From positions 598,501 to 662,500 of the forward strand of contig NZ_AP023360.1 of NCBI RefSeq assembly GCF_018326265.1: DNA of 64,000 nt. The letters are read 5' to 3'. Shown here one piece after another: positions 35,179 to 51,984 of this stretch. Each line of letters starts with the position of its first letter. Position 1 is the first letter of the stretch. This DNA comes from Catellatospora sp. IY07-71. Lineage in GTDB: Bacteria; Actinomycetota; Actinomycetes; Mycobacteriales; Micromonosporaceae. The notes under the pieces are model-generated. The model was given only the letters and a program-made list of their open reading frames with translations, made no database searches and had not been told where the DNA came from. Both the position numbers and the translations under genes were made by a program.

Positions 35179-36699
35179 GTGAGCGAGCGGAGCGAACGGG
35201 TGATCGGAGACGAGGCACTGCGTGGGGCACCCACGTGGACCCCGAACCCGACCGAGCTGTCCGACCTGGAGCTGCTGCTGGCCGGCGCGTACGAGCCGCT
35301 CGGCGGCTTCCTGGGCCGGGAGGACCTGCGCTCGGTGGCGGCCACCGCGCGCCTGGTCGACGGCCGGGCGTGGCCGCTGCCGGTGAAGCTCGAGGTGCCC
35401 GCGGGCATGCTGGACGGCATCGACGTCGCCGACGCGCCGCCGCTGGTGCTGACCGACGCCGAGGGCGCGCCGATCGCCCGGCTCGACGTGGCCGAGGTGT
35501 GGCCCACCCGGGAGGGCTGGTCCGGCGTCGCCGGCGAGGTCCACCGCTACGGCGACGGCGGGCGGGCCCCGTTCGCACGCCTGCGGATGCCCACCGATGT
35601 GGTGCGTAGCCAGCTCACCGCGCAGCGCGTGCTCGGCTTCTTCGCCGACCGCCCGCTGCACCGCCCGCAGCTGGCCCAGCTCAACCACGCCGCCCGCCAG
35701 CTCAATGCGCAGCTCGTGGTGCTGGTGCCGGTCGGCATGCCGGGGCCGGACGGGCTGCCGTCCGAGGCGCTGGTGCGCTGCGTGCTGGCCGCCCGCGACC
35801 GCATGAACGAGCCGGTCATCGTGGCCGTGCCGCTGGCCAGCCGGGGCAGCGAGGTCACCGACGCGCTGATCCGGGCCCGGGTCGCCGCCGCGTACGGCGT
35901 GACGCACCTGCTGGGCACGCCCACCACGCTCACCGGCGCGGGCCCGCGCGTGCTGATCCCGCGCGAGCTGGTCTACGACAGCCGGGACGGGCAGTGGCGC
36001 GATCGGGACGAGGTGCCCGAGCGGTTCGAGCGCATCGCGCTGACCGACGAGGAGATCGCCGGGCTGCTCGACGACGGCCTGCCGCTGCCGGAGTGGCACA
36101 CCCCGCCCGCGGTGGCGCGGGAGCTGTCCAAGGCCCGGCCGCCCCGCCGCCAGCGCGGCGTGGTGCTGTTCTTCACCGGCCTGAGCGGCTCCGGCAAGTC
36201 CACGGTGTCCCGGGGCGTGGCCGACGCGCTGCTGGAGACCGGCGAGCGCAGCCTGACCGTGCTCGACGGCGACGTGGTGCGCCGCGAGCTGTCCGCCGGG
36301 CTGGGCTTCAGCAAGGCCGACCGGGATCTGAACATCCGCCGCATCGGCTGGGTGGCCGCGGAGACGGCCCGGCACGGCGGCATGGCGATCTGCTGCCCGA
36401 TCGCGCCGTACGCCAGCGCGCGGGCCACGGCGCGGGCCATGGCCACCGCGGCGGGCGCGGACTTCGTGCTGGTGCACGTGGCGACGCCGCTGGAGGTGTG
36501 CGAGCAGCGCGACCGCAAGGGCCTCTACGCCCGCGCGCGGGCCGGGCAGATCACGGGGATGACCGGCATCGACGACCCGTACGAGGAGCCCACCGACGCC
36601 GAGCTGGTGATCGACACCTCGGAGGGCACCGTCGACGACGCCGTCGAGACCGTGCTGACCTTCCTCGGTGAAGAGGGCTGGATCAACCCGCGCAGCTGA
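35179..36699 (+). CDS. cysC: APS kinase with degenerate ATP-sulfurylase domain
   Basis: 506-residue two-domain protein. The N-terminal 300 residues have the ATP-sulfurylase layout, but the nucleotide site is eroded: where active enzymes have QTRNPxHRxHE this has FADRPLHRPQL. The C-terminal domain is a full adenylylsulfate kinase: Walker A FTGLSGSGKSTVSRGVADAL (about 331-350), VLDGDVVRRELSAGLGFSKA, IAPYASARATAR, KGLYARARAGQITGMTG. It therefore probably makes PAPS from APS but not APS itself. GTG at 35179, with CAGGAG upstream. The product PAPS is the donor for the two sulfotransferases of the adjacent polysaccharide locus. Confidence 0.87.
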   Translation: MSERSERVIGDEALRGAPTWTPNPTELSDLELLLAGAYEPLGGFLGREDLRSVAATARLVDGRAWPLPVKLEVPAGMLDGIDVADAPPLVLTDAEGAPIARLDVAEVWPTREGWSGVAGEVHRYGDGGRAPFARLRMPTDVVRSQLTAQRVLGFFADRPLHRPQLAQLNHAARQLNAQLVVLVPVGMPGPDGLPSEALVRCVLAARDRMNEPVIVAVPLASRGSEVTDALIRARVAAAYGVTHLLGTPTTLTGAGPRVLIPRELVYDSRDGQWRDRDEVPERFERIALTDEEIAGLLDDGLPLPEWHTPPAVARELSKARPPRRQRGVVLFFTGLSGSGKSTVSRGVADALLETGERSLTVLDGDVVRRELSAGLGFSKADRDLNIRRIGWVAAETARHGGMAICCPIAPYASARATARAMATAAGADFVLVHVATPLEVCEQRDRKGLYARARAGQITGMTGIDDPYEEPTDAELVIDTSEGTVDDAVETVLTFLGEEGWINPRS

Positions 36700-36701
36700 G
36701 C

Positions 36702-36759
36702 ACGTCAAGAAGGGCAGCTTCTACGACGCACAGCGTCAAGAAGGTGCCCTTCCTTTCTA
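36702..36759 (-). repeat. Type A double-hairpin repeat, copy 2
   Basis: Units at 36704-36723 (GTCAAGAAGGGCAGCTTCTA, diverged) and 36734-36756 (GTCAAGAAGGTGCCCTTCCT). The TAG stop of the GH26-like gene (36757-36759) falls in the repeat end, exactly as in copy 1. Confidence 0.8.
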
Positions 36760-39123
36760 GCGGGTGTAGCCGGCTGAGGTTCCGGTGACGATGTCGAAGG
36801 CGGGGTGCTTGCTGAACTCCTGGAAGGAGCTGAGGCCCTCGCGGGTCATGTCGATCATCGAGCTGCGGCCCTCCTCGGCGCTCGGCGACTCGAAGTAGAC
36901 CAGTGCCTTCAGGCGCGGGAACAGTTCGAGCTGGAGGCGGGCCGAGTCGAAGAACCTCGCCTGGTGCTGCGGGTTGCTGCGGGAGTGCCAGACCCCCCAC
37001 TCGCCGAGCATCAGCGGCTTGTCCGGGAAGGACTGCGCGGCCCAGTTGTAGAAGCCCGGCCAGTCCTTGCGGCTGCCCGACTTGCGGTTCATCATCTCCG
37101 CGAAGTCGCCGTAGCCGTAGCCCGGGTCGCTGTAGGCGTAGGTGTCCCAGGCGACCCAGTCCACCACGTCGTCACCGGGGTAGAGCTCCTCGAACCAGTC
37201 CTTGACGTTCCACGGCACGAAGGCCATGTAGCACATCACCGAGACCAGGTTGTCCACCCCGCGGGCGCGCAGCCCGGTGACGACGTACCGGAACGCGGCG
37301 GCGTAGTCCCGGGCGGTCATCCCGGAGCCGGGCCGCGGCACGACGTCGTTCTCCGGCTCGTGGTGCATCGTGAAGAAGAACGGGTCGGTCAGCGAGCCCT
37401 TGATGTGCGTGGCGAGCCGGTCCAGGTAGGCGTCGGTGCGCCGGTCGCCGGCCGCGATCCCGGCCCAGCTCACGTGCTGCGGCTTCCAGTTCAGGAAGAG
37501 CACCCGCTTGTGCGCCGGGTCCCGCGTGATGGCCAACTCCTCGGCGGTCGGGAAGAGCGAGGTGCCCCGGTGGTACGCGTGATAGACGACCTGGAGCCGG
37601 TTGGTGCGCCGTTCGAACTCGTGCAGCGCCTGGATGCGGTTCTGCGAGGTGTGCGCGCCCGGCGCCACGCCCCACAGCGCGCCGCAGGTCGGCACCAGGG
37701 TCCGGCCGATGACGCAGTCCACCGGCGCGTTCGGGTCCCCGGTCGGCGACGGCTCGGCCGACGGCTCCGTGGACGGGCTAGGCGGTCCGGGTGCCGGGCT
37801 CGGCTCGGCCACGGGCGAGGCGCTGGCGCTCGGCGCCGCCGACGGGCCGGGCTCGCTCGGGGAGGGGCCCGGCTCTCCCGGCAGCGGGCTCGGGTCCACC
37901 GGGTCCGGGCTCGGCTCGCCCGGCAGCGGGCTCGGATCCGGGTCGGGGCTGGTCCCGGTGCCGGGCTGCCCGGGGAACGGGCTCGGGTCCACGGGCTCGG
38001 GGCTCGGCTCGCCCGGGAACGGGCTCGGGTCCACCGGGTCCGGGCTCGGCTCGCCGGGGAGCGGGCTCGGGTCGATCGGGCCGGGGCCGGGTTCGGTGCC
38101 AGGACCGGGCTCCCACGGCAGCGGGTCCGGGCTCGGCTCGGTGCTCGGAGCGGGCTCCTCGGGGAACGGGTTCGGCTCCGGGGACGGGCTGGGCTGCTCG
38201 CCTGGCCGCGGGCCGGGTGCGCTGGAGACCGGGCTCGGCACGTCCGGCGCGGGACCGGCCGGGTACGGGCTGGGCCGGTCGCCCGGCTGCGCGCCGGTCG
38301 GCGCGGCGCTGGGCTGTGTCACGGGCGACGTGCTCGGGGACGCACCGGTCTGCTGGCCCGCGCCTCCGGCCGGGTAGGGGCTCGGGCGCACCGGGGCCGA
38401 CGGGGACGGCGTGCCGGTCCACGGCTGCTCGCTGGGCTCGTAGCCGGAGCCCGGCCAGGGCGTGGTGCTCGGCCGCACGCTCGGCGGCGCCGACGGGGTG
38501 GCCGACGGCCCGTCGGCCGGCGGGGGCGGCACGGGGCGGGACGGCGGGTCCCACTCGAAGGTGATGGTGGGCGCGCCGGTCGTGCTGCCGTGGGCCTCGG
38601 CCGCCACGAAGCGGGCGGCCTCGTTGCGGAACGGGGCGGTGACCGCGAAGGCGTAGCGGCCCGAGCGGCGGATGACCCGGGTGACGTCGAACGCGACCGC
38701 CCGGTCGAAGCGGCCCGGGGTGGCCCCGGCGACCACGTCGCCCAGCCGGGGCGCGGTGCCCGCGGTGATGGTGCCCTGGTGCCACCGGGTGTCGGGCACC
38801 CGGCTCAGCTCGATGATCCCCGGCAGGGTGCCGCTGTGGCGGCCGAGCCAGAGCCACACCTTCCGCGGCTGCTTCCCGGCCGGCATGGTGACGTCGAACT
38901 TGAGGTAGCTGACCGCGGCGCCGCCGTCGTAGCCGCCCGCGGTGAGGTACACCTGCGTGCCCGCGGTGACGCCCGGACTGGTGCTGACCGTGTAGGAGTC
39001 CTCCGACACCGGGATGCGCGCGGGCGGCGGGGTGAGCCGTCCGGCGAGCAGTCCCAGCAGCACCGCTGAGGCCAGCGTGGACATGGTTACGGTGACCGCG
39101 ATGCCGACTCGGCTTCTGCCCAT
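36757..39123 (-). CDS. Cell-surface GH26-like hydrolase with Pro-rich stalk
   Basis: 788-residue exported protein. N-terminal membrane anchor or signal (about residues 8-30), a beta-rich DNRLRE/CBM96-like module (about 38-195), a long Pro/Gly/Ser/Glu stalk (about 195-462) with near-perfect repeats of PSPLPGEPSPDPVD type, then a (beta/alpha)8 glycoside hydrolase domain like family GH26. Candidate catalytic acids are in FFTMHHEPENDV (near residue 588) and LMLGEWGVWHS (near 708). Probably trims or releases the exopolysaccharide made by the divergent cluster at 39380. A GH26-like paralogue lies at 47171. Confidence 0.82.
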   Translation of the reverse strand: MGRSRVGIAVTVTMSTLASAVLLGLLAGRLTPPPARIPVSEDSYTVSTSPGVTAGTQVYLTAGGYDGGAAVSYLKFDVTMPAGKQPRKVWLWLGRHSGTLPGIIELSRVPDTRWHQGTITAGTAPRLGDVVAGATPGRFDRAVAFDVTRVIRRSGRYAFAVTAPFRNEAARFVAAEAHGSTTGAPTITFEWDPPSRPVPPPPADGPSATPSAPPSVRPSTTPWPGSGYEPSEQPWTGTPSPSAPVRPSPYPAGGAGQQTGASPSTSPVTQPSAAPTGAQPGDRPSPYPAGPAPDVPSPVSSAPGPRPGEQPSPSPEPNPFPEEPAPSTEPSPDPLPWEPGPGTEPGPGPIDPSPLPGEPSPDPVDPSPFPGEPSPEPVDPSPFPGQPGTGTSPDPDPSPLPGEPSPDPVDPSPLPGEPGPSPSEPGPSAAPSASASPVAEPSPAPGPPSPSTEPSAEPSPTGDPNAPVDCVIGRTLVPTCGALWGVAPGAHTSQNRIQALHEFERRTNRLQVVYHAYHRGTSLFPTAEELAITRDPAHKRVLFLNWKPQHVSWAGIAAGDRRTDAYLDRLATHIKGSLTDPFFFTMHHEPENDVVPRPGSGMTARDYAAAFRYVVTGLRARGVDNLVSVMCYMAFVPWNVKDWFEELYPGDDVVDWVAWDTYAYSDPGYGYGDFAEMMNRKSGSRKDWPGFYNWAAQSFPDKPLMLGEWGVWHSRSNPQHQARFFDSARLQLELFPRLKALVYFESPSAEEGRSSMIDMTREGLSSFQEFSKHPAFDIVTGTSAGYTR
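37868..38080 (-). repeat. Tandem 42-bp coding repeats of the Pro-rich stalk
   Basis: Units coding for about 14 residues (SPLPGEPSPDPVDP and variants with PFPGEP or PFPGQP) are repeated about five times with interruptions. Copy number is likely to vary between strains. Confidence 0.7.
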
Positions 39124-39254
39124 GGTCGCCCCTTCCCCCGAAGAGCGGGCACTCAGAATTTTTGTCCCTTTCTGCGTACCCTCGGAGGCATCATAACCGT
39201 TGTGTCTTGTTTGCGGAGTTTCAGACAGAGAACGCGGTTACCTCTTGTTTGACC

Positions 39255-39283
39255 TTGACCCTAGCCACGACCTGGCATAACAG
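39255..39283 (+). promoter_or_regulatory. Candidate promoter of the exopolysaccharide cluster
   Basis: TTGACC (39255-39260), 17-bp spacer and TAACAG (39278-39283). A second TTGACC overlaps just upstream at 39249. About 95 nt of leader precede the GTG at 39380; the rest of 39124-39379 shows no gene. Confidence 0.4.
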
Positions 39284-39379: not shown

Positions 39380-41077
39380 GTGGACGCGACATACGCCGGG
39401 CCACCCCCCTCGACGTACGACATGACCGACTACCTGGGCCTCGTCGCCCGGCACTGGTGGATCGCGCTGCTGCTGACGCTGGCAGGCACCGCCGGCGGCG
39501 CGGCGTACAACGAGTCGCTGCCGCGCGAGTACGTCTCCACCGCCTCGGTGCTGGTACGCCCGGCCGGGCTGGACGCCAACGTGGCCGGCGGGCGCACCCG
39601 GGACGAGATCAACCTGGACACCGAGGCCCAGCTCATGCGCTCGACCGCCGTGGTCGCGGGCGCGGCCGAGCTGCTCCAGCGCGAGGACGTGGACACGCTG
39701 GCCGCCGCGGTGTCCGTCGAGGTGCCCGCGAACACCGCGGTGCTCCAGATCAAATACGCCTCGGACTCGCCCGAGCAGGCGCAGGCCGGGGCGACCGCGT
39801 TCGCCAAGTCGTACCTGGCCAACCGCGAGGGCAACGCCAAGGCGGAGCTGAACCGGCAGGCCGACGCACTGCGCGACAAGATCAAGGACCTGACCGAGGA
39901 CCTGACGAAGATCAACGGCAAGCTGTCCGGTGTCAACCCGAAGAGCTCCAGCTACGCCACGCTGGACAGCCAGCGCGACACCACGGTCACCCAGATCAAC
40001 GCGCTCAACAACAAGGTGAACCAGCTCGCCACGGAGACCGTGAGCGCGGGCGCGGTCATCCGCGACGCCCGGGTGCCCAGCCGCCCGGTCAAGCCCACCG
40101 CGGCGGTCAACTACGCCGCCGGGGCGCTGCTCGGCCTGCTGGCCGGGCTCGGCGCGGCGGCCCTGCGCGAGCGCCTGGACCGCCGCGTCCGCGGCGGCCG
40201 GGACCTGCTGCGCAGCAGCGTCGACGTGCTCGGCGTGGTGCCGGGCAAGGGCGCCGCCTGCACCGAGGTGTTCACCCCGTTCAGCCCAGGCGGGCGGGCC
40301 TTCAACCGGCTGCGCAACGAGGTGGTGGCCGCGTTCCGGCCCGGTGAGCAGGTCGTCGTGGTCACCGGCGCGAGCCGCGGCCCGGCCGCCACCCTGGTCG
40401 CCGCGAACCTCGCCGCCGCGCTGTCGCGCACCGGGGCCGAGGTGGTCATCATCGGCGCACAGCTGCCCGACTCGCTGACCGAGGCCGCGCCGCTGGCCAA
40501 GCTGCTCGGCGTCGCGCCCACGCCCGGCCTGTCCGACGTGCTCGCGGGCCGGGTGAGCCTGGCCGAGGCGACGCAGCGCGCCGCGCGTACGCCCTCGCTG
40601 CACGTCATCACCACCGGCGGCACCGCCACCGCCGCCGGGCTGCTGCAGTCCCACGCGCTGCGCGACATCGTGGCGACCCTGCGCGCCCACGCCGACTACC
40701 TGGTGGTCGAGGCGCCGTCCACCGCCACCAGCGCCGACGCGCAGAGCCTGGCCAGCCTCGCCGACGCGGCGATCCTCGCGGTGGAGACCCGCCGCACCCG
40801 GCGGCCCGAGGTCGCCGACGCCGCCGAGCAGCTGCGCCGGGTCGGCACGCCGCTGCTCGGCGCGGTGATGATGCCGCGCCTGTCGCACCGCGCCCGGCGC
40901 GGCGCCGGTGCGGACCCCGCACCCGCGACCGACGAGAGCGCCGCCCGCCCCGCCGAGGAGGCCCCGGTCGACGGCAGCAGCAACGGGCACAAGCCGCACG
41001 CCGACGAGCAGACCATCATGCTGGCGCCGCTGGACGCCTCCGCGCTGACCGAGCTCGACGAGGCCCAGCGCTCATGA
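39380..41077 (+). CDS. Wzz/BY-kinase-like chain-length protein, P-loop eroded
   Basis: 565-residue polysaccharide co-polymerase. Wzz domain: first helix near residues 27-45, extracytoplasmic coiled region, proline-rich exit (VPSRPVKPTAAVN) and second helix near 240-258. It is followed by a cytoplasmic domain shaped like a bacterial tyrosine kinase (HRAFNRLRNEV-type start). The Walker A position reads VVVTGASRGPAATLVAANLA (about 327-346) instead of SxxPGEGKST, and no tyrosine cluster ends the protein. It is probably a pseudokinase that regulates chain length or export. GTG at 39380; coupled to the next gene by ATGA. Confidence 0.82.
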   Translation: MDATYAGPPPSTYDMTDYLGLVARHWWIALLLTLAGTAGGAAYNESLPREYVSTASVLVRPAGLDANVAGGRTRDEINLDTEAQLMRSTAVVAGAAELLQREDVDTLAAAVSVEVPANTAVLQIKYASDSPEQAQAGATAFAKSYLANREGNAKAELNRQADALRDKIKDLTEDLTKINGKLSGVNPKSSSYATLDSQRDTTVTQINALNNKVNQLATETVSAGAVIRDARVPSRPVKPTAAVNYAAGALLGLLAGLGAAALRERLDRRVRGGRDLLRSSVDVLGVVPGKGAACTEVFTPFSPGGRAFNRLRNEVVAAFRPGEQVVVVTGASRGPAATLVAANLAAALSRTGAEVVIIGAQLPDSLTEAAPLAKLLGVAPTPGLSDVLAGRVSLAEATQRAARTPSLHVITTGGTATAAGLLQSHALRDIVATLRAHADYLVVEAPSTATSADAQSLASLADAAILAVETRRTRRPEVADAAEQLRRVGTPLLGAVMMPRLSHRARRGAGADPAPATDESAARPAEEAPVDGSSNGHKPHADEQTIMLAPLDASALTELDEAQRS

Positions 41078-42528
41078 CCGCGGTCGCCCGCGCCGCGGTC
41101 CACGACCCGGCGCAGCCGGGCGACGCCGTGCCCCCGCCCCGGGCCGCCGTGCCGGCCGGGCGGGTCCGGCGGCTGCTCGGTCCGGCCTGGCCGCTGACGG
41201 CCCTGCTCGCGCTCTATCCGCTGTGGTGGGCGCTCGGGCTCGGGGTGCTGATCTTCCCGATCATGGCGGTGCCCATGGCGTGGCAGCTGTTCCGCCGCCA
41301 CGCGCGGGGCATGCCGGTCCGGCTGCCCCCGGCGTTCTGGCTGTGGCTGGTCTTCTGCGGCGTGGCCGTGGCCGGGTTCGCCGTGCTCGACGTGGACCCG
41401 GCGGGCACGGTGCCCGCCACGTTCGGCGAGCGGATCACCGCGCCCACCTACAAACTCGGCCAGTACGCCGCGCTGACCGTGCTGCTCGTGTACGCGGGCA
41501 ACCTGTCCCCGGCCGTGCTGTCGCAGCGGCGGCTGGTGAACCTGCTCGGCTGGCTGTTCGCGGTGACCGTGGCGGGCGGGCTGCTCGGCACGTTCGCCGG
41601 GCACTTCGAGTTCACCTCGCCGGTGGAGCTGCTGCTGCCGGACGGCGTACGGAGCAAGGGCTTCGTGAAGTCGCTGGTCCACCCGTACGCGGCGCAGATC
41701 ATGGAGCTGGTCGGCGATCCGGCGCCGCGCCCGGCCGCGCCGTGGGGCTACACCAACACCTGGGGCAACAACTTCTGCCTGCTGGTGGTGTGGTTCGCGG
41801 TGGCCGTGTTCGGCTACCCGACCCGCACCCGCGACCGGGTGCTGGCGATCGGGCTGCTGGCCGTGTCGGTGGTGCCGGTGGTGCACTCGCTCAACCGGGG
41901 CCTGTGGATCGGCCTGGGTGCGGCGGCGGTGTACGTCGCCGTCCGCCAGGCGCTGGCCGGGCGGGTCCGGGCGCTGGCCGCCCTGGGCGTGGTGCTGGCC
42001 GGGCTGGCCGTGGCGCTGGTGGCCACCCCGCTGGGCGGGGTGATCGAGCGGCGCTTGGACAACGGCAAGTCCAACGGCGTGCGCATGTTCCTCACCGAGC
42101 ACGCGATCGAAGGCTTCCGGGAGTCGCCGGTGCTCGGCTTCGGCTCGACCCGCAACACCCAGGGCGGCCGGCAGTCGATCGCGGTCGGCGAGTCGGCGGC
42201 CTGCGAGCGCTGCGGCAACTTCACCGTCGGCGGCAACGGCCAGCTGTGGCAGCTGCTGTTCGCGCACGGCGCGGCGGGCACCCTGGCCTACTTCGGCTTC
42301 TTCGGGTACGGGCTGTGGCGCTTCCGGCGGGACCGCTCGGCGATCGGGCTGGCCGCGTCGGCCGCGATCGCGGGCTCCTTCCTCGCGGCGCTCTGGTACA
42401 ACTCGCTCGTCACGCCGCTGGCCTTCACGTTCCTGGGATATGTGCTGCTGTGGCGCAACTCCCGCTTCCAGATAGTGTCCCGCTCCGTTGAGCCCCTGGG
42501 ACATAACGGACACCAGCGGAGGAGCTGA
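41074..42528 (+). CDS. O-antigen ligase/Wzy-like polymerase
   Basis: 484-residue polytopic membrane protein with about eleven helices and a large extracytoplasmic loop before the conserved SLNRGLWIGLGAAAVYVAV segment of the Wzy_C family. It is likely to polymerise or ligate lipid-linked repeat units outside the membrane. The loop near residues 365-385 carries two Cys (ACERCGNF). ATG overlaps the Wzz stop (ATGA), so the pair is co-translated. Confidence 0.82.
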   Translation: MTAVARAAVHDPAQPGDAVPPPRAAVPAGRVRRLLGPAWPLTALLALYPLWWALGLGVLIFPIMAVPMAWQLFRRHARGMPVRLPPAFWLWLVFCGVAVAGFAVLDVDPAGTVPATFGERITAPTYKLGQYAALTVLLVYAGNLSPAVLSQRRLVNLLGWLFAVTVAGGLLGTFAGHFEFTSPVELLLPDGVRSKGFVKSLVHPYAAQIMELVGDPAPRPAAPWGYTNTWGNNFCLLVVWFAVAVFGYPTRTRDRVLAIGLLAVSVVPVVHSLNRGLWIGLGAAAVYVAVRQALAGRVRALAALGVVLAGLAVALVATPLGGVIERRLDNGKSNGVRMFLTEHAIEGFRESPVLGFGSTRNTQGGRQSIAVGESAACERCGNFTVGGNGQLWQLLFAHGAAGTLAYFGFFGYGLWRFRRDRSAIGLAASAAIAGSFLAALWYNSLVTPLAFTFLGYVLLWRNSRFQIVSRSVEPLGHNGHQRRS

Positions 42529-42529
42529 C

Positions 42530-42607
42530 GTGCGCGAGAGCATGGGCGAACCGACCACCGGGCTCCACCGCCGGACGGCTGTCATGTGCGGCGAGGTGGC
42601 CGCGTGA
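42530..42607 (+). CDS. Candidate 25-residue peptide between polysaccharide genes
   Basis: GTG at 42530 is preceded by GGAGGAG five bases upstream, the best ribosome site in the cluster. The frame runs 25 codons (starts VRESMGEPTTG, ends AVMCGEVAA) and stops at a TGA that overlaps the GTG of the next gene (GTGA). It may be a coupling leader or a true small protein; no homologue is recognised. Confidence 0.4.
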   Translation: MRESMGEPTTGLHRRTAVMCGEVAA

Positions 42608-43895: not shown

Positions 43896-44768
43896 GTGAA
43901 GACGTCGAACGTGCCGGAGTCGGTCAAGCGGGTCGTGCACATCGGATCCCGCTCGGTCGGCTGGCTGACCGCGGGCGCGCGTTTGCTGCCGTCGTTCTTG
44001 ATCTGCGGCGGGCAGCGCTGCGGCACGACCTCGCTCTACCGGGCGCTCGCCGCGCACCCCGCGATCCTCAAGGCGGTGCTGCACAAGGGCGTGCACTACT
44101 TCGACACCAGCTACCACCGGGGCGGGGCCTGGTATCGGGGGCACTTCCCGCTGCGGCGCACCGCCGCCCGGGTCGAGCGCGAGCTGGGCGTGCCCCCGCA
44201 GACGTTCGAGTCCAGCCCGTACTACCTCTACCACCCGCACGCCGGTGCCCGAATGGCGCGCGACCTGCCCGGCATCAAGGTGATCGTGCTGGTGCGCGAC
44301 CCGGTGGAGCGGGCCTACTCGCAGCACGCGCACGAGGTGGCGCGCGGCTTCGAGACGGTGACCGACTTCGCACAGGCGCTGGACCTGGAACCGGCCCGGC
44401 TGCGCGGGCAGCGGGAGCGGCTGCTCGCCGACGAGCACGCGTACTCGTTCTCGCACCAGCACCACGGCTACCGCTCGCGCGGCGAGTACGCCGTCTACCT
44501 GCGCCGGATGGCCGAGCACGTGGGCCGGGAGCGGATGCTGGTGGTGGAGAGCGAGCGCTTCTTCGCCGACCCGAAACCGGTGTACGACGATGTGCTGGCG
44601 TTCCTCGGCCTGCCGCACCTGAGCTACCCCGAGTTCGAGCAGCACAACGCCCGCCCGCGCAGCGCGCCGATGCCCGCCCGGCTGCGCGCCGAGCTGATCG
44701 CGCACTACGCCCCGCACGACACGGCGCTGGCCGAGTGGCTGGGCCGTACGCCGAGCTGGCGCGCGTGA
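43896..44768 (+). CDS. PAPS-dependent sulfotransferase (heparan type)
   Basis: 290-residue cytoplasmic sulfotransferase that would move sulfate from PAPS to a glycan hydroxyl or amino group. The 5'-phosphosulfate loop is FLICGGQRCGTTSLYRAL (residues 34-51) and the 3'-phosphate motif is VLVRDPVERAYSQ (about 131-143), with HHGYRSRGEYAVYLRR and VESERFFADP as in NDST-like enzymes. GTG at 43896 has GGAGAG upstream. Overlaps the flippase gene by GTGA. PAPS could come from the CysC-type gene at 35179. Confidence 0.9.
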   Translation: MKTSNVPESVKRVVHIGSRSVGWLTAGARLLPSFLICGGQRCGTTSLYRALAAHPAILKAVLHKGVHYFDTSYHRGGAWYRGHFPLRRTAARVERELGVPPQTFESSPYYLYHPHAGARMARDLPGIKVIVLVRDPVERAYSQHAHEVARGFETVTDFAQALDLEPARLRGQRERLLADEHAYSFSHQHHGYRSRGEYAVYLRRMAEHVGRERMLVVESERFFADPKPVYDDVLAFLGLPHLSYPEFEQHNARPRSAPMPARLRAELIAHYAPHDTALAEWLGRTPSWRA

Positions 44769-46372
44769 CCAGCCCGCTCACCACCGCGCCCGAGGCGGCC
44801 GTCCCGGCGCAACCGGCACCCCCGCCGGCGGACGGGGCCGCGAGCCTGTCCGGGTTCGCCCGGGGCGGGGTGGCCAACCTGGCCGGGGCGGCGCTCGCGG
44901 CGGTGGCCGGGGTCGGGGTGACCTGGCTCGTCGCGCGCGGGCTCGGCCCGCACGCGGCCGGCTCCTTCTTCGCCGCGACGGCGGCGTTCGTGCTGGTCGG
45001 CGGGTTCGCCCGGCTCGGCACGACGACCGCGCTGGTGTACTGGCCCGCCCGGCTGCGCGCGCTGGGCAGGCCCGAGCTGATCGGCCCGTGCCTGCGCAGC
45101 GGCCTGGTGCCGGTCGCCGTGCTCGGCGTCGCGCTGGGCGTGGCGGTCTGGCTCGGCGCCGCCCGGTTCGTGCCGGACTACGCCGCGCCGCTGGCCGCGC
45201 TGGCGCTGTTCCTGCCGGTCGTGGCGCTGTCCGAGGCGCTGCTGGCGGCCACCCGGGGCTATCGCATGATGCGGCCGACCGTGCTGCTGGAGAAGATCAT
45301 GCGCCCGGCCGTGCAGCTGCTCTGCGTGGGCGGCCTGGCCGCGGCCGCGCTGCTGTCGGGCACCGGCGCGGCGGCGCAGACCTGGGCGCTGGCGTGGGTG
45401 CTGCCGTACGTGCCGGTCGCCGCGATCGCCGGTTTCCTGGTCTGGCGCAGGTGGCACCACGAGCCCACGATGACCCGCAGCGAGCGGGCGGCCGCCCGCA
45501 TCGAGGGCCGTCCCGTGGCCGGCGCGTTCTGGCGGTACACCGCCCCGCGTGCCCTGGCCAACGCGGCGCAGACCGCGCTGCAGCGGGTAGACGTGCTCAT
45601 GGTCGCCGGGCTCGCCGGGCTCGCCCCCGCCGCCGCGTACGCCGTAGCGGGCCGCTTCGTCGTGCTCGGACAGCTGGCCAACGGCTCCATCGCGCAGGTG
45701 GTGCAGCCCCGGCTGGCCGAGACGCTGGCCGTCGGGGACCGCGCGGGCGCGCTGCGGCTCTACCAGACCGCCACCGCCTGGCTCGTCCTGATCAGCTGGC
45801 CGCTGCACCTGGTCGTGGCCTGCTACGCCGACCTGTACCTGGGGCTGTTCGGGCCCTCGTACACCTCCGCCGCGCCCGCGGTGCGGGTGCTGGCCGCCGC
45901 GATGCTGATCAGCACCGGCTGCGGCATGGTCGACATGGTGCTGTCCATGGCCGGGCGCACCACCTGGAACCTGATGAACGTGCTGCTGGCGCTGGCCACC
46001 ATGGTCTGCATCGACCTGCTGACCATCCCCCGCCTCGGCGTGCTGGGCGCGGCGATCGGCCTGGCCGCCGCGGTCGCGGTCAACAACCTGCTGCCGCTGG
46101 CGCAGCTGTCCGGCTCGCTGCGGCTGCACCCGTTCGGCACCGGTACGCGTACCGCGATGGCGCTCGCCGCCACCAGCTTCGGCGTGCTGCCCTGGCTGGT
46201 CCGCCTGGTCGTGCCCAGCCAGCCGGTCGGCGCCGGGGCCGCCCTCGTCCTGGCCACCGGCGTCTACCTCGGCGGCCTGCGCCGCTACCACGACCGGCTC
46301 GGGCTCCGGGCGCTGCTCAAGGCCGCCCGCCCCGGCCGCCGCAACACCGACCAGGCCGCTACCCAGGGGTAG
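44765..46372 (+). CDS. Wzx-type polysaccharide flippase
   Basis: 535-residue MATE/MOP superfamily membrane protein with about 14 helices, the type that flips undecaprenyl-linked repeat units. Family features: the first helix SGFARGGVANLAGAALAAVA and the mid-protein RYTAPRALANAAQTALQRVDVLMVA. GTG at 44765 is inside the sulfotransferase stop, so sulfation and flipping genes are co-translated. This suggests sulfate is added before export. Confidence 0.88.
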   Translation: MTSPLTTAPEAAVPAQPAPPPADGAASLSGFARGGVANLAGAALAAVAGVGVTWLVARGLGPHAAGSFFAATAAFVLVGGFARLGTTTALVYWPARLRALGRPELIGPCLRSGLVPVAVLGVALGVAVWLGAARFVPDYAAPLAALALFLPVVALSEALLAATRGYRMMRPTVLLEKIMRPAVQLLCVGGLAAAALLSGTGAAAQTWALAWVLPYVPVAAIAGFLVWRRWHHEPTMTRSERAAARIEGRPVAGAFWRYTAPRALANAAQTALQRVDVLMVAGLAGLAPAAAYAVAGRFVVLGQLANGSIAQVVQPRLAETLAVGDRAGALRLYQTATAWLVLISWPLHLVVACYADLYLGLFGPSYTSAAPAVRVLAAAMLISTGCGMVDMVLSMAGRTTWNLMNVLLALATMVCIDLLTIPRLGVLGAAIGLAAAVAVNNLLPLAQLSGSLRLHPFGTGTRTAMALAATSFGVLPWLVRLVVPSQPVGAGAALVLATGVYLGGLRRYHDRLGLRALLKAARPGRRNTDQAATQG

Positions 46373-46416: not shown

Positions 46417-47169
46417 ATGCGCGCCGACTACACCGAGATCTTCCAGGACGAGGCGACGGTCGAGAAGTACGAGCACGTCGTATACGCCCCGGACAGCTAT
46501 TCCTCGGCGATAAATCGGCGCCAGCGCGCCTACCTGCGGCGGCTGGCCAAACGGGCGTTCCCCTACCGGCGCCCGGTGCAGCACGACTTCGCCTGCGGCA
46601 CCGGCCGGGCCATCCGCATCCTGCACGGCCTGGTCCGCGGCGCGCACGGCTACGACACGTCGGCCGCGATGCTGTCCAAGGCCGAGGAGGTCGGCGCATA
46701 CGCCGAGCTGCACCTGGTCGAGGCCGCGGGCGAGGTGCCCGACCCCGCCCCGACCGAGATCCCGGCCCTGGTCACCATCTTCCGGCTGCTGCTCAACGTG
46801 GACAACGAGGTACGCGAGCGGGCCATCGCGTTCGGCGCGAAGGTGCTGCCCAACTACGACGCCGGGCTGCTGGTGGTGGAGAACCACGGCAACCGCCACT
46901 CGCTGCGCCACCTGCGCCACCAGCGGCACGCGGGCTCGCCGTGGTTCGCCGAGCTGGACCACACCGAGGTCGCCGAGCTGCTCGACCGGCACGGCTTCAC
47001 CATCGTGGAGCAGCGCGGCTTCGCCCTGTTCACGCAGGGCTGGTACGGCCGCCGCGGGCTGCGCACGCTGGCCCGCCTCGTCGACGACTTCGTCGCCCGC
47101 ACCGGCTGGGGCGGCACCTGGGCCGTCAACGTGCTCTACGTCGCCCGGCGCACCCGGAACGTCGACTGA
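46417..47169 (+). CDS. SAM-dependent methyltransferase
   Basis: 250-residue class I methyltransferase. The SAM motif I is HDFACGTGRAIRIL (near residues 50-63) and the acidic loop YDTSAAMLSKAEEV follows. The C-terminal part (ELDHTEVAELLDRHGFTIVE) suits a small-molecule or sugar methylase. ATG at 46417, with AAAAGGAA upstream. Lies in the polysaccharide operon, so a sugar O-methylation is likely (inference). Confidence 0.83.
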   Translation: MRADYTEIFQDEATVEKYEHVVYAPDSYSSAINRRQRAYLRRLAKRAFPYRRPVQHDFACGTGRAIRILHGLVRGAHGYDTSAAMLSKAEEVGAYAELHLVEAAGEVPDPAPTEIPALVTIFRLLLNVDNEVRERAIAFGAKVLPNYDAGLLVVENHGNRHSLRHLRHQRHAGSPWFAELDHTEVAELLDRHGFTIVEQRGFALFTQGWYGRRGLRTLARLVDDFVARTGWGGTWAVNVLYVARRTRNVD

Positions 47170-47170: not shown

Positions 47171-48190
47171 ATGCAGCCTCTCCGGCACGGCGTCGCCGGC
47201 CGCGTGTCACGGATCCTCGCCGGGGTGGCCGCCGTGGCCCTGCTCGCCACGTGCGGCTCCCCGCACCGGGCCGACCGGGGCATCGCGGTCGCGCCGGCCG
47301 GGCCCGCCGGGACCCGCCCGCCGCTGGCCTCCGGCGGCCCGGTCGCCGCGCCGGCGTCCGGAGCGCTGCTCGGGGCCTGGGTCCGCCCGGCGAGCCTCAC
47401 CCAGGCCGGGCGGGTCACCGGCATCGCCGACTTCGAACGGGACCTCGGCCGCAGGCTGGACATCGTGCACACGTACCGGCGGCTGCGGGAGGAGTTCGGC
47501 ACCAGCTCCGACCGGACGTTCCTCACGTCCGGCGCCACCCTGATGTTCAGCTGGACCGGCGGCCCCAGCGCCGAGGTGCTGCTCGGCGAGCACGACGAGC
47601 TGATCCGCGAACGCGCCCGCCAGGCGCGCGACCTGGACGTGCCGGTGCTGCTACGGCTGCGCTGGGAGATGGACCGCCCGAACCTGCTCGCCGAGGTCGG
47701 CTCCCCCGACGAGTACACGGCGGCGTGGCGGCATACCCGCGCGCTGTTCGCCGCCGAGGGCGCGGACAACGTGTCCTGGGTCTGGTGCCCCACCGAGCAG
47801 GGCTTCACCACCGGCCGCGCACTGGACTTCTACCCCGGCGACGACCAGGTCGACTGGACCTGCGCCGACGTCTACGCCGGCAGCGCCCTGACCCCCATCG
47901 CCGACCTCCTGGAGCCCTTCCTGCACTGGGCCGCCGCCCGCCCCCACCCCATCATGATCGGCGAATACGGCGTCTCCCGCGCCTGGACCGCCCCTCAGCG
48001 CGCCGACTGGCTCTCCGACGCCCACCGCGTCTTCCGCACCAACACCCAGATCAAAGCGGTCCTCTACTTCGAATCCAACCCCGACGACCGCACCCCCGCC
48101 GGCGAATTCGCCCTCCGCCCCGACCCCGCCCCCTTCCAGGCTTTCCGCACCACCGCCCACGACCCCTGGTTCAATCCCCAACCCCGTTGA
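47171..48190 (+). CDS. GH26-like lipoprotein hydrolase
   Basis: 339-residue lipoprotein (signal ending LLATC, lipid Cys near residue 28) with a (beta/alpha)8 GH26-like domain. Candidate catalytic acids lie in LLRLRWEMDRPN (near residue 166) and IMIGEYGVSRA (near 265). FYPGDDQVDWTCADVYAGS and KAVLYFES match the same places in the hydrolase at 36757. ATG starts 1 nt after the methyltransferase stop. It is the last gene of the plus-strand operon and probably edits or degrades the polymer at the membrane. Confidence 0.8.
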   Translation: MQPLRHGVAGRVSRILAGVAAVALLATCGSPHRADRGIAVAPAGPAGTRPPLASGGPVAAPASGALLGAWVRPASLTQAGRVTGIADFERDLGRRLDIVHTYRRLREEFGTSSDRTFLTSGATLMFSWTGGPSAEVLLGEHDELIRERARQARDLDVPVLLRLRWEMDRPNLLAEVGSPDEYTAAWRHTRALFAAEGADNVSWVWCPTEQGFTTGRALDFYPGDDQVDWTCADVYAGSALTPIADLLEPFLHWAAARPHPIMIGEYGVSRAWTAPQRADWLSDAHRVFRTNTQIKAVLYFESNPDDRTPAGEFALRPDPAPFQAFRTTAHDPWFNPQPR

Positions 48191-48267
48191 TCATGACCTT
48201 ATGGCACGGCTCGGCGGTGTGTCGTGGCCACAGTCTCCTGATCGACTTCGCGCAGGGGCGGTGATCC

Positions 48268-48319
48268 GTTTTCGTGGACGCTGGACGTCGCCATGACAGT
48301 GCTCAGCGTCCACGGAAAC
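48268..48319 (-). terminator. Hairpin after the Uma2 gene
   Basis: 16-bp arms with one mismatch (48268-48283 with 48304-48319), 6 nt after the stop at 48326. It may serve the convergent plus-strand operon as well. Confidence 0.65.
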
Positions 48320-48325
48320 AGATCT

Positions 48326-48961
48326 TCAGCGGGCGAGCAGGTCCGCCGGATCGAAGTCGGCGGCGAAAGGCTCCACCATCTGCATACGCTGCCCGGACAC
48401 GGCCCGGGTGACCAGCTCATACCGGCCGTCGACCAGGCGGCGCAGCTCGACCACGGCGAGATCCCGGGCGGCGTCCAGCTCGACGGTCATGAACCAGGCG
48501 ATGCCCTGCTGCAGACAGGCGGCGGGCTTGTTGACGTGATCCCGGCGCACGCTCGACGGGCTGACGAACTCGACCACCATCACGCAGTGCTCGGCAGCCA
48601 CCCACGTGCCGTGCTGCGGGCTGTCCAGCACCGTCAGATCAGGCTGGATCCAGCGGTCGAGCGCGCCCATGGTCAGGTTGACCGTGCCGTAGACGTAGTA
48701 GCCGGCTTCCCGGGCACCGGCGCGAAATGCCGATGCCAGCTCGATCGCGCCATATGAATTGCGTGCGGCCTCGTATGGAGATATGAACAGTTTCCCGTCC
48801 CAGCACTCGTACTTCACCAGAGGAAGTCCCGGGATGGGCAGGTAGCGCTCGGCCACCTCGACGGTCCACATGCCATCAAGATCGACCAACGGATCGAACG
48901 GGTGGTCACTGTCCACGTCCGTCACCTGCTGATTCGCAAACCTCTCGACCGTTGCTGTCAT
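48326..48961 (-). CDS. Uma2 family endonuclease-like protein
   Basis: 211-residue protein of the Uma2/DUF820 family, which has a PD-(D/E)xK fold. Active-site pieces: RWIQPDLTVLDSP and VMVVEFVSPSSVRRDHVNKP. No known target. It interrupts the polysaccharide locus on the opposite strand and has its own hairpin. Its base use is a little less GC-rich than its neighbours (for example around 48720-48900), which would fit later acquisition. Confidence 0.83.
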   Translation of the reverse strand: MTATVERFANQQVTDVDSDHPFDPLVDLDGMWTVEVAERYLPIPGLPLVKYECWDGKLFISPYEAARNSYGAIELASAFRAGAREAGYYVYGTVNLTMGALDRWIQPDLTVLDSPQHGTWVAAEHCVMVVEFVSPSSVRRDHVNKPAACLQQGIAWFMTVELDAARDLAVVELRRLVDGRYELVTRAVSGQRMQMVEPFAADFDPADLLAR

Positions 48962-49043
48962 ATCGATCCCTCCCCAGGGTCACCACCAGCGTAGTGGCCC
49001 CGGTCCGGGCTGAACAGCACCGCGGCGCAACTTAATCGATCAG

Positions 49044-49098
49044 GCGTTAAGAAGGGCACCTTCCTCTACGGAAAGCGTTAAGAAGGTGCCCTTCCTTA
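49044..49098 (-). repeat. Type A double-hairpin repeat, copy 3
   Basis: Units GTTAAGAAGGGCACCTTCCT (49046) and GTTAAGAAGGTGCCCTTCCT (49077). The WecG-type gene stops (TAA, 49096-49098) at the repeat end. Confidence 0.85.
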
Positions 49099-49902
49099 CT
49101 TGCGGCGGAGGGCGGAGGTGGCGAGGAGGCGGGCGGCGTAGGGGAGGTCGTGGACCAGGTATCGGCCGGCCAGGCGGCCGGGCTCCTGGGCCAGGCGGTG
49201 GGCCCATTCGAGGCCGCTGCGCTGCATCCAGATGGGGGCGCGGTGCAACTCGCCGGCGACGAAGCCGATGGCCGCGCCGCAGCCGATGAACCAGGTGAAC
49301 GGCAGCTCGGCGCGCAGGTCCGAGATGACCCGCTCCTGCTTCGGGAAGCCGAGGCCGACGAAGACGAAGTCGGGCTTGGCCTCGATCACGTCGGTGTACA
49401 CCTGCGCGCACGTGTCCGGATCGAGGTCGAACCCGAACGGCGGCGCGACCTGGCCCGCGATGCGCAGCCCGGGGCAGCCTGCGGCGAGCACCGAGGCGGC
49501 CTTGACCGCGCCGTCCATGCCGGTCTCGTCGGCGGGCGAGCCGCCGAGCAGGTACACGGAGCGGCGGGCCCGGCCGAGGGCGGCGCTGAGGGTCCAGATC
49601 AGACCGGATCCGGTCACCCGTTCGGGGAGCGGGGTGCGGGCGAGCCTGCTGGCCCAGACCAGGGGCATGCCGTCGGCGACCACGAGCGCGGCGTCCTCCA
49701 GGAAGCCGCGCACCTCGGCGGCGCGCACCCCGCGGCCGGTGGCCAGCCGCATGATGTCGACGTTCGGGGTGAGGATGCGGCCGCCTTCGCCGCGTTCGAG
49801 CGCGGCGAGCACCCGGTCGGCGACGGTCTCCTCGGTGACCGCGTCGAACCAGGTGCCGGCGAGGCGGACCCGGCGGCCATAGACAGTCCCCGTAAAAGAC
49901 AC
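49096..49902 (-). CDS. WecG/TagA/CpsF family glycosyltransferase
   Basis: 268-residue GT26 enzyme that adds the second sugar (ManNAc-type residues in model systems) to a lipid-linked precursor. Seen: LTPNVDIMRLATG, VVADGMPLVWASRL, SVYLLGGSP, GLRIAGQVAPPFG and the signature VFVGLGFPKQERVI. GTG at 49902 is preferred; TTG at 49914 is also in frame. Divergent from the sulfotransferase at 49988, sharing an 85-bp AT-richer promoter region. Confidence 0.87.
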   Translation of the reverse strand: MSFTGTVYGRRVRLAGTWFDAVTEETVADRVLAALERGEGGRILTPNVDIMRLATGRGVRAAEVRGFLEDAALVVADGMPLVWASRLARTPLPERVTGSGLIWTLSAALGRARRSVYLLGGSPADETGMDGAVKAASVLAAGCPGLRIAGQVAPPFGFDLDPDTCAQVYTDVIEAKPDFVFVGLGFPKQERVISDLRAELPFTWFIGCGAAIGFVAGELHRAPIWMQRSGLEWAHRLAQEPGRLAGRYLVHDLPYAARLLATSALRRK

Positions 49903-49987
49903 GAAATCAGACAATACAGACCAAGTAGGCGGTTCGGTCGTTATGCCGTACGAGCGCGTCACGCCGTGGCGCGGCAGTGGGGGATGT

Positions 49988-50950
49988 ATGGCAACCAGGG
50001 TTCTTTTCGTCGGTGGACTCGGCCGCAGCGGCACGACCCTGATCGAGCGGGTGCTGGGCGAGCTGCCCGGCGTCTGCGCCCTGGGCGAGATCGTCCATCT
50101 CTGGCAGCGCGACGTACGCGACGACGAGCGCTGCGGCTGCGGCGACCGGTTCAGCCGCTGCGACTTCTGGCAGCGCGTCGGGCACGCCGCGTTCGGCGGC
50201 TGGCACCGGGTCGACGTGCACCGCATCCTGGCCCTGCGCGACCTGGTCGAGCGCACCCGGCACATCCCGCGGCTGGCCGGGTCGGCCCGCCTGGCCGGCG
50301 ACTTCACCGCGCTCGTCACCGAGTACGCCGGCTACTACGCGAAGATCTACGCCGCGGCGGCCACCGTGTCCGAGGCGAACGTGGTGATCGACTCGTCCAA
50401 GCACAGCGCGCTGGCGCACTGCCTGCGCTGGTCGGACGAGGTGGACCTGCGCGTGCTGCACGTGGTGCGCGACGCGCGCGGCGTGGCGTACTCGTGGACC
50501 AAGACGGTGTCCCGGCCGGAGACCGACGGCTCCGAGGAGATGACCCGCTACGCGCCGACCCGCAGCGCGCTGCTGTGGAACGCGCACAACGCCGCCTTCG
50601 GGCTGCTGCGGCGGCGGGGCGTGCCGGTGCGGCGGGTGCGCTACGAGGAGTTCCTGGCCCGGCCGCGCAACACGGTGCGCCGGGTCGCCGCGTTCATGGG
50701 CATGGACCCGTCCGTGATGGACCTGGGTTTCCTGCACGACGACGCCGTCGAGCTGTCCCGCGGTCACAGCGCCGCGGGCAACCCGATGCGCTTCACGGTC
50801 GGGCGCATCGAGCTGCGCCGCGACGACGCCTGGCGCCGGCAGCTGCCGCCGCGCCAGCGCGCCCTGGTCGGGGCCGTCTGCGCGCCGCTGCTGCGGGCGT
50901 ACGGCTACCCGCTGAGCAGCAACGCCGAGATCGTAGGAGCGCACCGATGA
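49988..50950 (+). CDS. PAPS-dependent sulfotransferase, second type
   Basis: 320-residue sulfotransferase unlike the one at 43896. 5'-phosphosulfate loop RVLFVGGLGRSGTTLIERVL (residues 4-23), a Cys-rich loop RCGCGDRFSRCDFW (about 48-61), VVIDSSKHSALA and the 3'-phosphate site LHVVRDARGVAYSW (about 157-170). ATG at 49988 with GGGGGA upstream; the earlier in-frame ATG at 49943 lacks one. Coupled by ATGA to the glycosyltransferase. Confidence 0.88.
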   Translation: MATRVLFVGGLGRSGTTLIERVLGELPGVCALGEIVHLWQRDVRDDERCGCGDRFSRCDFWQRVGHAAFGGWHRVDVHRILALRDLVERTRHIPRLAGSARLAGDFTALVTEYAGYYAKIYAAAATVSEANVVIDSSKHSALAHCLRWSDEVDLRVLHVVRDARGVAYSWTKTVSRPETDGSEEMTRYAPTRSALLWNAHNAAFGLLRRRGVPVRRVRYEEFLARPRNTVRRVAAFMGMDPSVMDLGFLHDDAVELSRGHSAAGNPMRFTVGRIELRRDDAWRRQLPPRQRALVGAVCAPLLRAYGYPLSSNAEIVGAHR

Positions 50951-51984
50951 AGCTCAAGGCCAACAGCGGACGGTTCGACGGCGGCCGGGGGGCGCGCCCG
51001 GCGGCGGCCACGGCACACCCGCCCGCCGCGCCCGGCACGGCCGTGCTCGGCGCGACGCCCGGCTCGCGCGACTGGCCCGCCGTCGGCGTGGTCATCCCCA
51101 CCCGCAGCCGCCCGGAGCTGCTGCGCAAAGCCCTGGATGCGGTACGCGCACAGGACTACCCCGGGCCGTTGCGCGTGCTCGTGGTCTTCGACCAGGCCGA
51201 GCCGGATCCATCGCTCGCCACCGACGGCGGGCGGCCGGTGCTGGTGGTGGCCAACGCGCGCCAGGCCGGGCTGGCCGGAGCGCGCAACACCGGCATCACG
51301 GCGCTGGACACCGAGCTGGTCGCGTTCTGCGACGACGACGACGTCTGGCACCCGGCGAAGCTGCGCCGCCAGGTGGACGCGCTGGCACGTACGCCCACCG
51401 CGCAGTTCGCGACGTGTGCGATCGAGGTGGAGTTCGAGGGTGCCGCGCACCCGCGGCTGGCCGGGACCGACCTGGTCACCGTGGACGACCTTGCGCGCAG
51501 CCGGATGTCGATGCTGCACTCGTCGGGCTTCCTGGCCCGGCGCGAGGCGCTGCTGGCGGACGGGGCGATCGGCCCTGTCTCCGAGGATGCCCCCGGCAGC
51601 CAGAACGAGGACTGGGACCTGCTGCTGCGGGCCGCTCGGCGGCACCCGATCGTGCACGTGGACGAGCCGCTGGTGCGGGTGCTCTGGGGGCGCAGCAGCT
51701 TCTACGCGTACGAGTACGCCACGAAGATCTCGTCGTTGCGCTGGATGATGGCCCGCCACCCGGAGATCTCCGGCTGCCGCCCCGGCGCGGCCCGGGTCTA
51801 CGGTCAGCTGGCCTGCTGGTCGGCCGCGGCCGGCGACCGCCGCCAGGCCTGGCGCTGGGCCCGCGAGACGGTCCGCAACAACTGGCGGGAGCCCCGTGCC
51901 GCCATCGCCCTGGCCGCTCTGACCGGCGCCGTCAAAGTGGAAACCGTCCTCACCGCCCTCCACCGCCGGGGCCACGGCATCTGA
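50947..51984 (+). CDS. Family 2 glycosyltransferase
   Basis: 345-residue GT-A fold enzyme with a 45-residue disordered start. Nucleotide-sugar motifs: VGVVIPTRSRPELLRKALDA and the metal site VAFCDDDDVWHPAKL. The acceptor base region is EDAPGSQNEDWDLLLRAARR. It transfers a sugar onto the growing repeat unit; which sugar is unknown. ATG overlaps the sulfotransferase stop, and the locus ends at the hairpin 52023. Confidence 0.88.
   Translation: MKLKANSGRFDGGRGARPAAATAHPPAAPGTAVLGATPGSRDWPAVGVVIPTRSRPELLRKALDAVRAQDYPGPLRVLVVFDQAEPDPSLATDGGRPVLVVANARQAGLAGARNTGITALDTELVAFCDDDDVWHPAKLRRQVDALARTPTAQFATCAIEVEFEGAAHPRLAGTDLVTVDDLARSRMSMLHSSGFLARREALLADGAIGPVSEDAPGSQNEDWDLLLRAARRHPIVHVDEPLVRVLWGRSSFYAYEYATKISSLRWMMARHPEISGCRPGAARVYGQLACWSAAAGDRRQAWRWARETVRNNWREPRAAIALAALTGAVKVETVLTALHRRGHGI

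Follow-up and report, generated by a model that had tools for sequence, protein, structure and literature searches.

Does the genome of Catellatospora sp. IY07-71 encode a sulfated exopolysaccharide, and does it bring its own supply of the sulfate donor 3'-phosphoadenosine 5'-phosphosulfate (PAPS)? This question is raised by a locus within a 64,000-nucleotide stretch of the 8.6 Mb genome (G000:C1:598501-662500; hereafter the window, in whose coordinates the features are numbered). We conclude that the stretch most likely encodes machinery that builds and exports a sulfate-decorated sugar polymer, together with an enzyme that provides the sulfate donor. At a probability of about 0.8, the locus is a Wzx/Wzy-dependent exopolysaccharide operon of the same kind as wps-1 (AMIS_7280-7380, with AMIS_7390) of Actinoplanes missouriensis, described by Tezuka and Ohnishi in June 2026 (PMC13390465; this and the other articles cited are drawn on from excerpts), and sulfate is added to its lipid-linked repeat units in the cytoplasm. 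We infer the sulfate on the polymer, the order of the steps, the priming enzyme that serves the locus and a coating of spores or hyphae in this organism.

An initial annotation, made from the sequence, had proposed two different PAPS-type sulfotransferases, at 43896 and 49988, and both are real by PF00685 and PF13469. The Wzz, Wzy, Wzx, WecG, GT2 and methyltransferase genes that it had described around them are all there, the Wzy match lying just below its cut-off and the methyltransferase match being weak. The genes of the system are as follows; the E-values of the two sulfotransferases (ST1 and ST2) were computed on longer readings of the same frames.

35179..36699, plus strand: adenosine 5'-phosphosulfate (APS) kinase, 506 aa, with an N-terminal degenerate ATP-sulfurylase domain; counterpart of AMIS_7390 (PF01583 1.6e-56, PF14306 4e-17, PF01747 1.3e-14)
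36757..39123, minus strand: secreted CBM96/GH26-like protein, 788 aa, convergent, between the APS kinase and wzz (PF24517 1.8e-9; PF02156 5.3e-4, below cut-off)
39380..41077, plus strand: Wzz-like chain-length determinant with a BY-kinase-like C-terminal part; counterpart of WpsK (PF02706 8.5e-6; TIGR01005 and TIGR01007 below cut-off)
41074..42528, plus strand: Wzy-like polymerase, with an ATGA overlap with wzz; counterpart of WpsJ (PF04932 7.6e-7, just below the curated cut-off)
42586..43860, plus strand: kinase-like protein; counterpart of WpsI by position (tblastn relatives in 75 of 78 loci)
43896..44768, plus strand: ST1, heparan-sulfate-sulfotransferase-like; counterpart of WpsH (PF00685 1.1e-11, PF13469 2.1e-11)
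44765..46372, plus strand: Wzx-like flippase (MatE) with 12 hydrophobic segments; counterpart of WpsG (PF01554 2.2e-6)
46417..47169, plus strand: S-adenosylmethionine (SAM)-dependent methyltransferase; counterpart of WpsF (PF13489 6e-5 and PF13649 1.5e-4, both below cut-off and weak)
47171..48190, plus strand: GH26-like protein with a lipoprotein-like N-terminus, read from the sequence; counterpart of WpsE (PF02156 5.1e-7, above cut-off)
49096..49902, minus strand: WecG/TagA/CpsF family glycosyltransferase; counterpart of WpsC (PF03808 7.3e-49, TIGR00696 3.9e-31)
49988..50950, plus strand: ST2, Sulfotransfer_3 type; counterpart of WpsB (PF13469 1.8e-12, PF00685 6.3e-6)
50947..51984, plus strand: GT2 glycosyltransferase, with an ATGA overlap with ST2; counterpart of WpsA (PF00535 2.7e-17)

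From left to right, ppc, the APS-kinase fusion gene and the convergent CBM96/GH26-like gene are followed by an operon of wzz, wzy, the kinase-like gene, ST1, wzx, the methyltransferase gene and the GH26-like lipoprotein gene; downstream of the last lie a Uma2 gene and wecG, both on the minus strand, ST2 with GT2, and then deoR and galT. The Wzx, Wzy and Wzz trio of the Wzx/Wzy-dependent pathway is thus complete in the window (with the Wzy match just below its cut-off). The APS kinase had been placed 2.7 kb from the first cluster gene; we measured 2.68 kb from its stop to the wzz start, a gap occupied by the 788-aa CBM96/GH26-like gene. The overlap between the first sulfotransferase gene and the flippase gene was also borne out: it spans 4 nt (GTGA, 44765-44768), or 34 nt from an alternative upstream GTG at 44735. 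All three start codons proposed for these genes (35179, 43896 and 49988) are valid; for the first two, the resulting lengths are also those common among relatives. The CBM96/GH26-like gene, the degenerate sulfurylase domain, the kinase-like gene, the GH26-like lipoprotein and the lack of a priming transferase in the locus are features absent from the initial annotation. The weakest assignments are the methyltransferase and the kinase-like protein; for the latter, scans with Pfam and NCBIfam returned zero matches.

The locus type itself is already published in a relative. The wps-1 cluster with AMIS_7390 has the same predicted domains in the same order as the window (GT2, ST B, WecG, GH26, methyltransferase, Wzx, ST H, kinase-like, Wzy, Wzz, Sat/APS kinase), a match judged by domains and gene order rather than by sequence, and for the kinase-like gene, a label given to WpsI in PMC13390465, by position only. 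The window differs in having the CBM96/GH26-like gene between the APS kinase and wzz, and a Uma2 gene where wps-1 carries DUF4262. In A. missouriensis, deletion of most wps-1 genes, and also of AMIS_7390, disrupts sporangia or spore release; the wpsH deletion (the ST1 counterpart) gives squashed sporangia, like deletions of the whole cluster or of the wzx, wzy or wzz counterparts (PMC13390465). On YBNM or HAT agar, media that are no test of sulfate assimilation, the AMIS_7390 deletion mutant looked macroscopically unchanged, but its sporangia failed; the authors call this phenotype unexpected and connect the gene with the formation of APS and of sulfur amino acids, and the term PAPS is absent from the main text (PMC13390465). 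The remark that sulfated surface polysaccharides are little described in filamentous actinomycetes has to be corrected in that this system has now been published. Among the titles and abstract openings listed by searches of the open-licence PMC literature, preprints excluded, none links PAPS to an actinomycete exopolysaccharide cluster. The addition made here is a proposed kinase-only PAPS supply for two sulfotransferases.

Do the sulfotransferases and the APS kinase accompany the export genes in relatives? We collected 78 loci from titled genome records using the flippase, a sulfation-neutral query, and mapped the window proteins onto them by tblastn. ST1 was found in 76, ST2 in 69 and the APS kinase in 54, a co-occurrence that supports the interpretation first proposed. 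Within the genus, no loss of the sulfotransferases was seen: ST1 is present in 8/8 Catellatospora loci and ST2 in 7/8, the eighth (L035) ending at a contig end. The species-named flippase match nearest to the window is from Catellatospora bangladeshensis (97% identity), and the loci extend past Micromonosporaceae to Actinomadura, Thermomonospora, Phycicoccus and metagenome-assembled genomes of Nocardioidaceae and Geodermatophilaceae. In 41 loci, mostly of Actinoplanes and its near relatives, the APS kinase gene runs in the same direction as wzz and ends 56-227 bp before it; a GH26-like gene separates the two in 12 other loci, Catellatospora included, and in one locus (L066) the kinase lies on the far side of the cluster. 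A subset with both flanks (9,900-base upstream cut, n=55) gave 54 loci with ST1, 50 with ST2 and 50 with the APS kinase; since this cut excluded nine Micromonospora loci, the counts for all 78 are used instead.

The linkage was also examined in whole genomes, where kinship and inherited synteny inflate the figures. Among 111 genomes of the family, ST1 (E<=1e-40) occurs in 93 and the APS kinase in 110, and the starts of the two genes are <=20 kb apart in 60 of the 93; by an arithmetic estimate, a random gene would be expected within 20 kb in <1% of 5-10 Mb genomes. In the class sample, 93 of 246 genomes have an ST1 match (E<=1e-10), and none of the 21 genomes labelled f19/g23 is among these 93, as far as the matches listed show. 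Outside the family, ST1 is linked to the APS kinase in at least 13 of 37 genomes and to cysD in at least 18 of 32, both being lower bounds from ST1 rows down to E ~2e-47 with the own family excluded. The idea that the APS kinase is exclusive to this locus type was rejected, as the gene is family-wide; what we claim is linkage, not exclusivity.

Which step of PAPS synthesis does the window provide? The fusion is the single clear APS kinase in the genome; a candidate second kinase at 8.03 Mb, a 22-bit match, was discarded as a 168-aa gluconokinase-like ORF (labelled by eye). In 54 aligned rows (the window and 53 relatives, one short APS-kinase row, L066, having been removed by a length filter), the kinase motifs GxSGSGKST (P-loop), DGDxxR and DRKGLYA[RK]ARAG are retained throughout, with some variable positions. 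The sulfurylase motifs, named QxRN and HxxH, are gone from the N-terminal domain in 54/54 rows, and the active-site stretch reads ADRPLHRPQ in every one. The best PDB sequence match was 3cr8, the two-domain APS kinase of Thiobacillus denitrificans, followed by yeast sulfurylase, and 3cr8 was among the top fold matches of the predicted model (mean pLDDT 81). Going by the title of Gay 2009, the T. denitrificans enzyme reportedly bears a sulfurylase-like domain lacking activity. The APS kinase of Entamoeba histolytica likewise has a sulfurylase-like domain without activity, and is compared with that of T. denitrificans in PMC13213808. The window fusion resembles both two-domain kinases in this respect and differs from them in that no polysaccharide context is described for them in the excerpts used, and in that the ADRPLHRPQ motif is its own. 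Judged by its motifs, the sulfurylase domain is catalytically dead, and its role is probably structural or regulatory. Because the sulfurylase motifs are lost and the kinase motifs kept, the fusion should make PAPS from APS and perform no earlier step.

APS itself must then derive, as the gene content suggests, from CysDN encoded outside the window. No cysD was found in the window, and a whole PAPS route inside it was accordingly rejected, so that the proposed own PAPS supply stands for the last step, by the APS kinase, but not for APS synthesis. No priming glycosylphosphotransferase was found in the window either (PF02397; 3 matches elsewhere in the genome). PF01507 identified three proteins in the genome, two of them CysD and the third CysH. 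Each CysDN copy is preceded by a priming transferase of the exopolysaccharide type, with a TIGR03025 score over the cut-off in both cases, one set at 2.001-2.006 Mb and the other in a second, paralogous cluster at 1.112-1.127 Mb. The window locus is without exactly the two functions that the cysDN-priming pair supplies, APS synthesis and priming.

Comparison with other genomes indicates that these split parts, cysDN with the priming transferase and the window cluster, belong together. In two loci outside the family (L104 and L105, which share one genus label, g50, and are not independent), the order Bac_transf-cysD-cysN-ST2-gt2-wecG-wzx-ST1-kinase-like-wzy-wzz-gh26L-apsK runs in one stretch of <20 kb, and a third (L116) has the same order with no wzx match; all three are without a match to the methyltransferase and to the small GH26 protein. 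In Actinomadura craniellae (L069) and Thermomonospora catenispora (L073), a single locus contains wzx, ST1, ST2, cysN, cysD and Bac_transf, with the APS kinase absent from the stretch examined. Of 51 genomes sampled within the family, 4 have apsK, ST1 and cysD no more than 40 kb apart. Among the 50 of these with cysD (one without a cysD match was excluded), Bac_transf lies <=6 kb from cysD in 32, which are 32 of the 42 with ST1 and 0 of the 8 without, at the E<=1e-40 limit set beforehand. With a limit for close ST1 orthologues (>370 bits) that was chosen after the pattern had been seen, the pairing occurs in 32/33 genomes against 0/17 others, some of the 17 being fragmented assemblies (Fisher p 1.8e-12, which ignores kinship; by genus label, 27/28 against 0/15).

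The second cluster lies in L093 (G000:C1:1105000-1124000) at 6708-19001 and continues in L094 at 828-4897, and contains a priming transferase, cysD, cysN, a GH26-like gene, wzx, an ST1-like gene, a kinase-like gene, wzy, DUF3048, wzz, GT28 and an ST2-like gene. The two cysN copies (L093:9119-10420 and L096:8672-9973) are ~0.9 Mb apart. Across 433 residues their products show no difference, and 36 of the final 2,000 bases differ between the two cysDN pairs, a pattern suggesting a recent duplication or gene conversion.

The alternative consumer of PAPS would be cysteine synthesis. The single CysH carries the CC...CxxC signature of the APS-reductase type and scores 227.3 bits with TIGR02055 APS_reductase (cut-off 235.3) versus 176.9 with TIGR02057 PAPS_reductase (cut-off 254.2). 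Because CysH resembles APS reductases, cysteine synthesis probably does not need PAPS here, and the kinase would mainly serve sulfation.

The two sulfotransferases are distinct. The predicted fold of ST1 matches 3rnl, NDST1 and 3-OST-3, and its PAPS-binding motifs are conserved over 77 rows (window included), so that in fold and PAPS-binding motifs it resembles heparan-sulfate-type sulfotransferases; it differs from the heparan sulfate 3-O- and N-sulfotransferases in that no membrane anchor was seen. In ST2, GxGRSG[TS]T is present in 70/70 rows and VRD-x-R-[GA]-VAYSW with few exceptions. Neither protein has a predicted hydrophobic segment, which is weak evidence since Wzz scored none either.

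From these parts we propose the following route. A priming glycosylphosphotransferase encoded elsewhere, most likely at G000:C1 2.001-2.003 Mb, would start the repeat unit on undecaprenyl phosphate, WecG and GT2 would lengthen it, and the methyltransferase and both sulfotransferases would decorate it. Wzx would then flip the unit, Wzy and Wzz would polymerise it, and the GH26-like proteins may trim or remodel the polymer outside the cell. For the donor, CysDN, encoded beside the priming enzyme, would produce APS and the kinase domain of the fusion would convert it to PAPS, chiefly for sulfation rather than for cysteine.

Several observations weigh against this route. A Glu is the catalytic residue in heparan sulfotransferases; at its position, inside KGVHYFD, ST1 has Gly in 77/77 rows. 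The APS kinase is missing from 24 of the 78 flippase loci, some of them cut by contig ends, and among these are all 9 Micromonospora loci, in which no kinase was found within the flanks examined (only 4.8 kb of upstream sequence in L091) and ST1 is present in 9/9. In 33 of the 93 family genomes with ST1 the kinase is not within 20 kb of it, partly through contig breaks. Since the kinase is found in 110/111 genomes, 17 of which have no ST1 match at E<=1e-40, it must serve other uses too. Inherited synteny may account for some of the linkage: several relatives have ppc beside the APS kinase and deoR and galT after the cluster. With NF002537 'phosphoadenylyl-sulfate reductase', CysH scores above the cut-off (273.1 versus 154), and with APS_reductase just below it; some Fe-S CysH enzymes accept both APS and PAPS. 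In A. missouriensis, the sulfated polymer is a proposal whose verification is awaited, and the mild wpsB mutant, with normal-looking sporangia and ~tenfold fewer spores, means that the ST2 counterpart is not essential there (PMC13390465).

Some of these points would fit an APS kinase of ordinary sulfate assimilation, delivering PAPS to CysH and standing beside exopolysaccharide genes by accident: the near-universal kinase, with 17 genomes lacking ST1, and the NF002537 score. The CysH signature and the order of its two TIGRFAM scores point the other way, as do the recurrence of the kinase-ST1 linkage inside and outside the family and the AMIS_7390 mutant, which showed no macroscopic change (on agar that does not test assimilation) while its sporangia failed, and we consider this explanation unlikely. 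Alternatively, the sulfotransferases might act on another target, such as a lipid, a wall polymer or a secreted small molecule, and owe their place to an inherited neighbourhood. That 3 of the 7 Sulfotransfer_3 matches in the genome lie outside the window cluster and the second cluster, that ST2 is absent in 5/55 long-flank loci, and that loss of the ST2 counterpart is mild would agree with this. It is nonetheless improbable, given the 4-nt overlap of ST1 with wzx, their joint presence in 76/78 loci and the squashed sporangia shared by the wpsH, wzx, wzy and wzz counterpart mutants. Least probable by far is a true bifunctional PAPS synthase making PAPS from sulfate alone. The domain order is like that of bifunctional Sat-APSK, and NF004040 aligns at 413 bits, below its cut-off of 669; on the other side, FFADRPLHRPQ stands in line with FQTRNPMHRAH of yeast, its core invariant in 54/54 rows, a second stretch is shortened relative to 3cr8 (query 259-270 against 262-298), and activity-less sulfurylase-like domains accompany the APS kinases of E. 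histolytica (PMC13213808) and, by title only, T. denitrificans. This candidate was rejected on the loss of the sulfurylase motifs. A sulfated Wzx/Wzy-type exopolysaccharide with a kinase-only PAPS step is the reading we prefer.

How does such a system compare with sulfated polysaccharides of other bacteria? The authors of PMC13390465 describe these as 'exclusively' cyanobacterial among bacteria; marine Gram-negatives also make them, contrary to this statement, with proven sulfated capsules in Vibrio sp. KMM 8419 and Cobetia marina KMM 1449 and the PAPS genes in their clusters (PMC11641403, PMC11766843). Like the system here, those clusters combine PAPS genes (cysNDC, or cysN/C and cysD) with sulfotransferases, but all in one cluster; they also differ in being Gram-negative with ABC-transporter export, and the excerpts mention no degenerate sulfurylase domain. 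PAPS-synthesis genes beside sulfotransferases in a polysaccharide cluster have been proposed as a hallmark (PMC11641403), and with these two capsules the principle is already known in other phyla. Of these genes, the APS kinase lies in the window and cysDN elsewhere beside a priming transferase; in L104, L105 and L116 both are in the same locus. The xss cluster for synechan of Synechocystis shares Wzx/Wzy-type export and two sulfotransferases with the window; of the mutants in these two, only that in xssA lost synechan completely (PMC13125312), recalling the severe wpsH and mild wpsB mutants. It differs in being cyanobacterial and in that no PAPS-synthesis genes are named in the cluster in the excerpts.

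A conserved PAPS route at the locus, if true, would explain the unexpected APS-kinase phenotype of the wps-1 paper, open the claim of sulfation to a direct test in mutants already available, and carry that claim over to genera without sporangia. The locus also offers carbohydrate sulfotransferases of heparan-type fold from soil bacteria. More tentatively, at a little under even odds, an ancient module for sulfated exopolysaccharide is common to actinomycetes, complete, in its fullest version, with CysDN, an APS kinase of the kinase-only type and a dedicated priming transferase. On this view its product would coat the surface of spores or hyphae generally in genera without sporangia and would have been recruited as the sporangium matrix in Actinoplanes, and its key sulfotransferase would use an unfamiliar catalytic base in place of the heparan-type Glu. 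Catellatospora is not known to form sporangia.

Two GH26-like secreted proteins occur in the one locus (36757-39123 and 47171-48190); by eye, both have Glu at places that presumably correspond to the GH26 catalytic pair. The kinase-like gene (42586-43860) nearly always adjoins ST1 across its 75 of 78 loci. The remaining genes in and beside the cluster are these.

48326-48961, minus strand: Uma2-type gene inside the cluster
52174-53954: deoR and galT, 3' of the cluster

By tblastn, the Uma2 gene has a match in L015 and L018 but in none of the other 76 loci, and may be a recent insertion. deoR and galT were each matched in 47 of the 78; their proximity perhaps reflects synteny only, or sugar supply.

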